Below are positions 13,282-46,204 of a DNA stretch of 64,000 nucleotides, in pieces. The notes under the pieces are model-generated. The model was not told where the DNA came from. It was given only the letters and a program-made list of their open reading frames with translations, and made no database searches. Numbering within the stretch: the stretch's first letter is position 1; every line of letters starts with the position of its first letter. The DNA comes from Candidatus Marsarchaeota G2 archaeon ECH_B_1 (lineage in GTDB: Archaea; Thermoproteota; Thermoprotei_A; Marsarchaeales; Marsarchaeaceae): contig NEXG01000001.1 of the NCBI GenBank assembly GCA_003019535.1, forward strand, positions 106,153-170,152, written 5' to 3'. The position numbers and the translations under genes were made by a program.

Positions 13282-15048
13282 ATGGTGTTCAAGCTACCAA
13301 AAAAGAAATCGAAAACCGACAAGACGGCTGAGGCTGTACCTCACTACACCTTCACTGAGAGTATGGCTACATTCGCCTTCCGGCACTTCGGGAAAATATC
13401 CCAGAGGATGCTCACATTCATGCCAGACTCACAATCGCTCTTCCTCAAGAGTGGGCTGAACTATACTCCCGAAGTGTTCTATTCACTAGTAATACTCTCC
13501 TCACTACTAACACTACCCATATCAGCAATAACCATATTCCTAATAATACTAAACCACAGGCTACTAGTACTCTTCCCACTTATACTCCTACCTCTCATCG
13601 TTTTCGGCTTCGGCCTACTCTACCCCAGATCGGCTGCGTCGAGTAGGGCGGGTGCACTTGATAACGAGCTACCCTTCGTAGTGGGCTATGTGGCTGTTCT
13701 CGCAAGCGGGGGTATCTCACCCATAATGACACTCAAAAGGCTCGCGAACGTGAAGCTTTACCCCAAGGCAGCCATCGAAGCGAAACGCATACTCATGGAT
13801 GTAGAAGTATTTGCCCTCGACCCCATAAGCGCACTGGAGAAGGCGGCGCGCTACAATCCAAACAAGGCGTTCGCAGACTTCTTCGGGGGATACACGAGCG
13901 TGCTCAAAACGGGTGGTGATGTTGTGGACTACATGCAGAACAAGATACGCGATATCTTCGCCTACAGGGCACTCAAGGTGAGGACAGCCGCGGACACAAT
14001 AGGCACATTCGCCGAATCCTATATCTCTATAGCTGTCATACTGGGTATAGGCCTCTTCGTACTATTCGCCGTGCAAACCATCCTCGGTTCAGCCGCTGGA
14101 GGCGGGGGAGGTGGGGGTGTGCAGAAGATCATACTCCTCACAACGGTGTTCAACCCCCTAGTGGCCGCCGCCTTTATATTCATCACACATAGCACCCAAC
14201 CTAAAGAGCCATTCAATTACTACAAGCCCTACATATTCTTCGGCATAGGCCTAGTAATGGTGCCCATAATACTACTCGTCCCGCCCATACTGCACCTCAG
14301 TATCCCATTTGTGTATAGGCTTGCCGCCGCGCTCACGGTTTGCACCATTCCAGGTGCTGCTGTGAGCATAGTTGATAGTCGCGCTAGGCGCAGCGTTGAG
14401 CGGCTTCTACCAAGCTTCATAAGGGATATCGCAGAGGTGAGGAAGACCGGTCTCGCACCAGAGAAGTCCATAGAGGAGTTATCCAGCAGAAACTACGGTG
14501 GACTCACACCTGTGGTGAAGAGTATGGCCTCCCAGATAAGCTGGGGAGTACCCCTAAGACAGGTGATGGCCAATATAATCGAGCAGACTAGGAGCTGGAT
14601 AACCCAGACCACAATGTTCCTCCTCTCAGAGGTTATAGATGTGGGCGGAGGCACACCCGAGACGCTTGGAAACCTCGCCGACTTCGTCGAGAAGATATTC
14701 CAAATAGAACAGGACAAAAGAAACCAGCTTCGACCATACATATTCATACCATACTTCGGCGCAATAATGATAGTTGTTACAACTGTACTCATGGTGTACT
14801 TCCTAACATCACCCATTGTGAGTGGCGGAGGATTCAACCCATTCGCTTCAAGCCTCTCAAACATATCAAGCGTGACAAACACTATGCTCGCTGGCGCAAT
14901 ATTTACGAGTTGGATAATGGGCTTCGTTTCGGGTAAAATGGGTGAGGGAAGTGTTGCAGCGGGCCTTAAACACGCATCACTACTCGCAGCCGTAAGCGGA
15001 ATAGTAATCTATGTTGCCACAATATTCTTCCACATAGCGGGTGTATAA
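13282..15048 (+). CDS. Type IV pilus/TadC-FlaJ-like membrane platform protein
   Basis: A 588-residue polytopic protein with two type II secretion F domains, the organisation of archaeal FlaJ/TadC platform proteins. The first domain (about residues 130-260) contains VLASGGISPIMTLKRLA and ends before a membrane segment and a run of seven glycines near residue 275; the second (about 370-480) contains EVRKTGLAPEKSIEEL and VGGGTPETLG. Hydrophobic segments lie at about 58-115, 245-275, 290-305, 315-360 and in the C-terminal 100 residues. It should anchor pilus assembly in the membrane. No ATPase is adjacent; the only one in the window is at 27.9-29.6 kb. Starts at an ATG with a TATA box 25-30 nt upstream. 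Confidence 0.87.
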   Translation: MVFKLPKKKSKTDKTAEAVPHYTFTESMATFAFRHFGKISQRMLTFMPDSQSLFLKSGLNYTPEVFYSLVILSSLLTLPISAITIFLIILNHRLLVLFPLILLPLIVFGFGLLYPRSAASSRAGALDNELPFVVGYVAVLASGGISPIMTLKRLANVKLYPKAAIEAKRILMDVEVFALDPISALEKAARYNPNKAFADFFGGYTSVLKTGGDVVDYMQNKIRDIFAYRALKVRTAADTIGTFAESYISIAVILGIGLFVLFAVQTILGSAAGGGGGGGVQKIILLTTVFNPLVAAAFIFITHSTQPKEPFNYYKPYIFFGIGLVMVPIILLVPPILHLSIPFVYRLAAALTVCTIPGAAVSIVDSRARRSVERLLPSFIRDIAEVRKTGLAPEKSIEELSSRNYGGLTPVVKSMASQISWGVPLRQVMANIIEQTRSWITQTTMFLLSEVIDVGGGTPETLGNLADFVEKIFQIEQDKRNQLRPYIFIPYFGAIMIVVTTVLMVYFLTSPIVSGGGFNPFASSLSNISSVTNTMLAGAIFTSWIMGFVSGKMGEGSVAAGLKHASLLAAVSGIVIYVATIFFHIAGV

Positions 15049-44996: not shown

Positions 44997-45659
44997 ATGA
45001 TTCATGGAACACTTGACCCCATGAGCCAGTTAAACTTCGGGAGGCTTGAAAAAAATACAACCTATCTAATAGTAGGTCCAAGAGGAACGGGTAAAACACT
45101 CTTCTGCATGCTAGCCGCGATGAGCTTCGCGTTGAAGGATTGGAGGAGTTTATACCTGACAACACAGAGTGATTTATCGTTTAAACTCGCCGAGAACCTA
45201 ATTGAAAACCATAGGTTACCAATAAAAATATTAGATAACGTTATCTTTGTCAGACCAACAAATAGAAACGTTGAGCCCAGAATACCTAAACTAATCGAAG
45301 CAACCAGACCATCAATCTTTATCTTTGATGAAGTAATTTGGGGCTATGGGAGCTATGTTATGGAAAACATAGAACTTGCGGTTTACAGAAGTAGGTTGCT
45401 TTCAAACATGCTCGCAGAAATTCATAGTCTGCGTGAGAATGTCGGTTTCACAACTATATATACGGCGGACACTCAGCAAGGCGGAAGAGTTCTAGCAAGC
45501 AAGGTGCTTGACTATTTTTCCGATATAGTGGTCGAATTTATCAAGCAAAGAGGCTATCAAGGCTCCTATAGAGCGGTGTTACGGAGTAATAAGTTAAGAC
45601 CCAAAAGCTACTCTTATACAATAGATAAACTTGGTTTTCACATCGGTGAGAACAACTGA
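44997..45659 (+). CDS. RecA-superfamily ATPase (RadB/KaiC-like), partner of XPD-like helicase
   Basis: A 220-residue single-domain ATPase. Walker A GPRGTGKT is at residues 27-34, preceded by the strand TTYLIV as in KaiC/RadB proteins, and Walker B is SIFIFDEV near residue 114 with a Glu after the Asp. There is no N-terminal helix-hairpin-helix and no FxxA-type polymerisation motif evident, so it is not RadA. It starts 9 nt after the XPD-like helicase and its stop overlaps carS. Tight coupling suggests the two ATPases act together, perhaps in repair; this is inference. Alternative: a KaiC-like regulator. Confidence 0.72.
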   Translation: MIHGTLDPMSQLNFGRLEKNTTYLIVGPRGTGKTLFCMLAAMSFALKDWRSLYLTTQSDLSFKLAENLIENHRLPIKILDNVIFVRPTNRNVEPRIPKLIEATRPSIFIFDEVIWGYGSYVMENIELAVYRSRLLSNMLAEIHSLRENVGFTTIYTADTQQGGRVLASKVLDYFSDIVVEFIKQRGYQGSYRAVLRSNKLRPKSYSYTIDKLGFHIGENN

Positions 45660-46204
45660 ATATTCTGATAATTATTCTAAATACCATATACTATCTACTG
45701 CCAGCCATGGTTGCAAATGCTGCACCAGTGCTCATAAGGAGGGGTCATCCGATAGACCACGGTTTAAACCTATACGATGGGAAGAGGATATTTGGTGATG
45801 GTAAAACCATCGAGGGCTTTTTGTTCGGCGTCTTTGGAGGAACACTGATAAGCTTCGGTGAATACGCGTTTAGTTCCACTCTAAGCCAGCTGCTAATAGG
45901 CATCTCGCTTTCTGTAGGTGCACTGGCAGGCGACTTAGTCGGCGCCTTCATTAAGAGAAGACTCGGTCTACCAAGGGGTTATCCAGCGCCATTATTAGAC
46001 CAACTCGACTTTGTGTTAGGCGCATATTTTGTTTCAGGAGTTTTTAACTACGTGGCTCAACACGATTTCACGGTTTTCGGTGACCTCGTACCACCCACAT
46101 TACAACTACAAATGGTTCTCACTTCCTTGTACATTATACCACTCCTCCACTTAGCTACCAACATAGGCGCATACTTTCTACATCTTAAACAGACACCTTG
46201 GTAG
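45656..46204 (+). CDS. carS: CDP-archaeol synthase CarS, apparent CTG start
   Basis: The protein has the DUF46/CarS features PAMVANAAPVL, HPIDHGLNLYDGKRIFGDGKTIEG and GDLVGAFIKRRLGLPRG, and about five membrane helices. It activates unsaturated archaeol phosphate with CTP, a step in archaeal membrane lipid synthesis. The first ATG (45707) falls inside the conserved segment and would remove the first helix. In the same frame, upstream, ILIIILNTIYYLL supplies that helix. No ATG, GTG or TTG is available between the in-frame stop at 45647 and 45707; a CTG at 45656 overlaps the upstream stop as CTGA and lies 5 nt after GGTGAG. I therefore call CTG as the start, with the ATG at 45707 as alternative. 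Confidence 0.85.
   Translation: MNILIIILNTIYYLLPAMVANAAPVLIRRGHPIDHGLNLYDGKRIFGDGKTIEGFLFGVFGGTLISFGEYAFSSTLSQLLIGISLSVGALAGDLVGAFIKRRLGLPRGYPAPLLDQLDFVLGAYFVSGVFNYVAQHDFTVFGDLVPPTLQLQMVLTSLYIIPLLHLATNIGAYFLHLKQTPW

Follow-up and report, generated by a model that had tools for sequence, protein, structure and literature searches.

CTG as the probable initiation codon of carS, conserved across genera of a Marsarchaeota-related archaeal family

The gene carS encodes CDP-archaeol synthase, an enzyme of the core lipid pathway. In the stretch of DNA that was analysed here (64,000 nucleotides of contig NEXG01000001.1 of Candidatus Marsarchaeota G2 archaeon ECH_B_1, referred to below as the window) the conserved N-terminus of this enzyme is encoded upstream of the first ATG in its frame, which raises the question of where translation begins. 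The initial annotation had pointed to a CTG at position 45656. Comparison with related genomes leads us to put the probability that carS is translated from this CTG at about 0.88. Six genomes of the family are compared, namely that of the window (G000), archaeon isolate B26 (G001), Candidatus Marsarchaeota G1 archaeon BE_D (G002), Candidatus Marsarchaeota FK_Sedi_B_Bin.208 (G003), YP4.bin50 (G004) and FK5.bin12 (G005).

The carS frame and its junction with the upstream gene

The layout of the junction is given in Table 1. Direct reading agrees with the earlier statement that the carS frame holds no ATG, GTG or TTG from the TGA at 45647 to the ATG at 45707, with two codons, GAA and CAA, standing between that TGA and the CTG. 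The proposed CTGA overlap with the preceding stop is confirmed by the TGA of the ATPase gene, and the GGTGAG noted just before the CTG is there, read here as GGTGA at a spacing of 6 nt. This geometry had been likened to that of other NTGA junctions, which is borne out by counts over 448 kb of G000 that include the window (331 called genes), where in-frame NTG-A junctions comprise 11 ATG, 7 GTG, 5 TTG and 2 CTG; GTGA and TTGA were located inside the window itself and ATGA was counted over the 448 kb only. A canonical start lies 10 codons upstream in the second CTGA gene, which leaves carS alone among the CTGA junctions of the 448 kb in having none. Elsewhere in the window, at 15045 on the plus strand, a 173-codon frame opens at an ATAA overlap after GGGTGT, its first canonical start lying 14 codons on, and from its sequence an ATA start is possible there.

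Table 1. Features at the carS junction (window coordinates)
Feature	Position	Strand	Remark
CTG, inferred initiation codon of carS	45656..45658	+	CTG-AAT in 5/6 family genomes, ATG-AAC in the sixth
Shine-Dalgarno-like GGTGA	45645..45649	+	6 nt before the CTG (= GGTG + 7 nt)
In-frame TGA closing the carS frame upstream	45647..45649	+	read directly in the sequence
RecA/KaiC-like ATPase gene upstream of carS	44997..45659	+	TGA (45657-45659) overlaps the CTG by 4 nt
carS, CDP-archaeol synthase	45656..46204 (stop codon included)	+	182 aa counted from the CTG
First predicted helix of CarS	45662..45733	+	residues 3-26, the greater part ahead of the first ATG
PAMVAN = PAxxAN motif of CarS	45701..45718	+	P and A upstream of the ATG
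First in-frame ATG of carS	45707..45709	+	rejected as start

The identity of the gene as CarS, with its activity predicted, is given by Pfam, an NCBIfam equivalog, a sequence match to a solved enzyme and the predicted fold. When counted from the CTG, the protein matches PF01864 over residues 4-182 (E 2.4e-39, 135.6 bits, cut-off 22) and the equivalog NF003114 from residue 3 (184.3 bits, cut-off 148). It also matches by sequence the solved enzyme 5GUF of Aeropyrum pernix, and a Foldseek search with its AlphaFold model, which has five predicted membrane helices, gave 5guf as the sole match at E <= 0.001 (E 3.4e-07). The pLDDT of the model is 86-92 over residues 1-20, P16 is invariant in a nine-row CarS alignment, and both P16 and A17 are invariant in a five-row alignment of the family. 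The claim that the conserved N-terminus precedes the first ATG holds in that most of helix 1, together with the proline and alanine of PAxxAN, lies upstream of it.

Translation from the ATG at 45707 would give an enzyme 17 residues shorter, and this is the first canonical start and the one that a gene finder limited to ATG, GTG and TTG would call, but it is very unlikely to be the one used. Starting at residue 18 leaves nine residues of helix 1 and loses P16 and A17; most of the helix would be lost because in the AlphaFold model it spans residues 3-26. The methionine at this column is not conserved, being leucine in G003, whilst the stretch that precedes it is conserved, with 11 of 19 residues identical between G000 and G002. 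Among 127 reciprocal-best pairs drawn from G000 (448 kb) and G002 (399 kb), none has a longer conserved stretch than carS ahead of the first canonical start of both members, the stretch in carS being these same 19 residues. More widely, CarS was found in 59 of 60 related genomes, with DNA taken for the best 30 and for the best 80 of 204 further loci, and of the resulting 110 loci (103 distinct) a canonical start precedes the proline of PAxxAN in 100 of the 103, the remaining three being G000, G001 and G002.

The putative start codon in related genomes

Whether close relatives carry a canonical codon at the same place was the check proposed earlier, and its outcome supports initiation at CTG: of the five relatives, G003 has ATG AAC at the codon aligned with 45656 and the other four have CTG AAT, as does G000, so that the CTG is common to three genera. 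An ATPase-like gene of 220-230 codons precedes carS in all six genomes. Its stop overlaps the carS start by 4 nt in G000, G001, G004 and G005 as CTGA and in G003 as ATGA, the ATG of G003 sitting in the same overlap with the same upstream gene as the CTG of G000. In G002 the overlap is 8 nt (CTGAATGA); the upstream stop has moved, so that no overlapping TGA dictates the CTG there, which has been kept all the same. In G004 and G005 a GTG is available two codons downstream, for which reason their CTG is consistent with a start there rather than forced. In G000, G002 and G004 the distance from GGTG to the CTG is exactly 7 nt, and G005 also has GGTG + 7 nt.

It should be kept in mind that the bin G003, the genome with ATG, has low coverage and a broken rpoB frame. 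In this bin the ATPase gene just upstream of carS (C19:15046) has a CTG after GGAGGTG + 7 nt, and it may be that the ATPase gene itself starts with CTG in the sole family genome where carS has ATG.

Another near-cognate codon might instead serve as the start, for example the ATT at 45662 or an ATA or ATT downstream of it, there being several such codons within the first helix of the G000 protein. This is less probable again than the ATG at 45707, as the first of these codons are not matched in G002, where the same columns read GAA, CTT and GTT, and CTG alone is both common to five genomes and placed 7 nt after GGTG. It is also conceivable, given that the two genes overlap, that ribosomes shift frame out of the ATPase gene and make CarS as a fusion, although this would be extremely unlikely: the frame relation varies, with a 4-nt overlap in five genomes and an 8-nt overlap in G002, therefore opposite frameshifts would be needed, and the ATG of G003 carS makes a fusion there unnecessary. 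Stop readthrough was likewise considered and rejected, since the in-frame TGA is preceded by another stop seven codons further up and the frame relation differs among genomes. That the CTG is a sequencing or assembly error for TTG, ATG or GTG, as might be suspected of metagenome bins, was disfavoured because the codon is the same in five assemblies, which span three genera and differ from one another at other bases nearby, and is excluded for practical purposes because G001 is a separate assembly that differs from G000 by 12 other substitutions inside carS and keeps the CTG, and G002 and G004/G005 belong to other genera.

The conservation of CTG at this position can be set against codon usage. 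CTG makes up 12.2% of leucine codons in G000, 5.1% in G002 and 21.7% in G004, and the carS start is the only one of 14 leucine columns conserved in these three genera at which the codon is identical; over conserved residues other than Met and Trp the codon is identical in the three genera at 13 of 87. Where the overlapping TGA dictates the TG (G000, G001, G004 and G005) only the C of the CTG is informative. This C is the third base of AAC (G000/G001) or CGC (G004/G005) in the ATPase gene, so that a change from C to T would be silent in that gene and would yield TTG; the C has nonetheless been retained. In a tree of rpoB, G002 is the first to branch and G003 comes later, inside the family, so that CTG is the most parsimonious state for the family ancestor. 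Judged from these sequences, CTG most likely replaced ATG a single time, on the family's stem, and ATG was then regained in the genus of G003. A single origin is likely rather than certain because the G003 row of the rpoB alignment is 47% filled and a CarS tree gave no resolved branching order.

Candidate near-cognate starts and an interrupted frame elsewhere in the family

The carS CTG is probably not an isolated case in the family, to judge from start regions compared across four of its genomes (495 groups, 1,210 gene N-termini). In these genomes GGTG at a distance of 6-8 nt is the start signal, and canonical starts are enriched there. In the start zones of genes that have no canonical start, 10 of 15 such GGTG sites precede a near-cognate codon. 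For non-canonical sites in other genes the proportion is 18 of 165 (Fisher p 3.1e-6), and for sites in the interior of the genes without a canonical start it is 76 of 543 (p 7.3e-6); when the spacing is 7 nt exactly the counts are 9/11 and 3/22. When all genes are taken together there is no excess of near-cognate codons after GGTG (9/123 at 6 nt, 18/128 at 7 nt and 2/75 at 8 nt, with a baseline of about 12-13% inside genes); the signal is confined to genes that lack a canonical start. This class holds 114 of the 1,210 genes and is mostly noise (antisense frames, frameshifts, weak alignments). Ten genes carry the signal, two of which (G002 C4:2894 and G000 C2:105058) are doubtful calls. Opposite a partner's canonical start the codon is one base from ATG in 15 of 39 aligned pairs and not in the other 24, a mapping that is gapless and that misplaced the codon for carS (GAG, GAA, ATT) and for Rrp4 (AAA).

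A number of individual genes were noted in the course of this comparison. In a nusA-like gene (L258-L263) a single aligned codon is TTG in G000 and G001, ATA in G002, ATT in G003 and ACG in G004 and G005, with no in-frame canonical start upstream of it in the last four genomes. The exosome gene Rrp4 of G002 (L228) has CTG after GGTG + 7 nt, the spacing found at carS, where its relatives have TTG or ATG. L30e has ATC in G003, set against ATG. A galT-like gene of G000 (C4:9825-9852, minus strand) has ACG after GAGGTG + 7 nt, the 28 bases of this region being identical in G001, and ATG in G003. The gene for cysteine--tRNA ligase (L248-L253) has ATG in G000 and G001 and ACG at the aligned codon in G002, G004 and G005; no Shine-Dalgarno sequence precedes the ACG of G002. 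The NusA-like protein, Rrp4, cysteine--tRNA ligase, L30e and aIF5B each score above a family cut-off and the galT-like protein falls below its cut-offs, whilst HD hydrolase, AOR and SRP54 are names that we presume from motifs. An ATT start for SRP54 of G004 was dropped as G005 has ACT, a candidate CTG start at G000 C4:92346 had no match in G001, and an extension of gene starts by coding statistics over the 448 kb of G000 was too noisy to be of use.

On these sequences, it is about an even chance that the family uses near-cognate starts (CTG, ACG, ATA, ATT, ATC) guided by Shine-Dalgarno sequences in a few core genes, of which carS may be the best-conserved case. The odds are put no higher because there is no excess over all genes, because base errors are possible in the bins and because all four genomes compared are of the family itself; several of the near-cognate codons seen in a single genome may be such errors. 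The case for carS stands independently of this wider reading.

The list of reciprocal-best pairs described above also placed the gene for aIF5B (archaeal IF-2) high, and this turned out to be an interrupted frame. A short insert lies between the GTP-binding N-terminus and TQHIGA (L233:1661-1710, at about 213,440 of G000 C1 on the minus strand, outside the window; also L232, L234, L236 and L240-L245). It is present in all ten genomes of the order (G000-G009), with in-frame stops in several, and the gene is uninterrupted at this place in all four genomes from outside the order (G012, G013, G016, G018). The insert can be folded as a bulge-helix-bulge with a 6-bp outer helix, a 4-bp middle helix, 3-nt bulges and a variable inner stem; over 8 distinct sequences 99.1% of cells are paired and 5 pairs have changed on both sides, with about 30% when the fold is slid. 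Excision of 15-26 nt would restore the aIF5B frame, and from its predicted fold the insert fits a bulge-helix-bulge intron. A precedent for such an intron in a protein gene is that of cbf5, as given in the excerpted text of PMC2738675; no report of an aIF5B intron was found in the open-access literature. In the aIF5B genes of G016, G018 and G012 (L237, L238, L239) HN stands in the frame ahead of TTLLD of the P-loop and resembles the end of an intein.

Proposed initiation at CTG and comparison with known systems

The place of the CTG, its conservation, its distance from the Shine-Dalgarno sequence and its overlap with the stop are features read from the DNA. A ribosome that finishes the ATPase gene, or a 30S subunit positioned by GGTGA, would put the CTG in the P site, where it could be read by the initiator Met-tRNA (Met-tRNAi) as a near-cognate of AUG. 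The protein would then probably begin with Met followed by NILIIIL, with a predicted N-terminal peptide of (M)NILIIILNTIYYLLPAM. Reinitiation after the ATPase stop, decoding by Met-tRNAi and a rate of initiation that is low or regulated are all parts of this scheme that we infer. In other systems CTG starts are far weaker than ATG, and one would be unexpected for a gene that is presumed essential. It is possible that a weak codon at a coupled junction ties the output of CarS to translation of the upstream gene, and the CTG may have been retained because it keeps expression low or linked to that gene.

Near-cognate starts in archaea are usually dismissed as rare or erroneous. The carS gene of the core lipid pathway keeps its CTG across genera at a constant distance from the Shine-Dalgarno sequence and has ATG in a sister genus; it offers a clean natural test case for the tolerance of archaea for non-AUG codons. 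A standard gene finder would trim most of helix 1 of CarS and the PA of PAxxAN, and if the family-wide reading is true then gene finders limited to ATG, GTG and TTG would systematically clip or miss the N-termini of other core genes. No earlier report of a conserved archaeal CTG start, nor of the start codons of this lineage, was found in the open-access literature; since non-AUG initiation is already known, a conserved archaeal CTG would not be a new category.

Compared with other CarS proteins (PF01864, NF003114, 5GUF), that of the window has the same whole-length family match, the five predicted helices and the fold match, and is set apart by its probable CTG start, a canonical start upstream of the motif being available in all but 3 of the 103 distinct loci. 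According to the excerpted text of PMC6237735 and PMC8211752, aIF1 acts against non-canonical start codons in vitro. A gene of the SUI1/aIF1 family is present in G000, G002, G004 and G005, thus loss of aIF1 is not the reason for the CTG start; no SUI1-family protein was found in G001 and G003, which are both incomplete bins. What carS shares with the systems policed by aIF1, as the same excerpts describe them, is the use as starts of codons that are one base from AUG, whereas here CTG has been retained through divergence at the level of a family. As for short-overlap termination-reinitiation pairs of archaea and bacteria, the excerpted text of PMC10666635 describes tight coupling at 4-nt overlaps, gives 8 nt as the shortest possible overlap in the other phase, and allows that odd overlaps may on rare occasions be due to non-canonical codons. 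In all six genomes the overlap of carS and the ATPase gene is of a length (1, 4 or 8 nt) expected of such a pair, and the 4-nt overlap of stop and start, with 8 nt in G002, is the likeness to those systems; the pairs in that text have NTG overlaps with canonical codons, whereas at carS it is a CTG that is conserved at the overlap.
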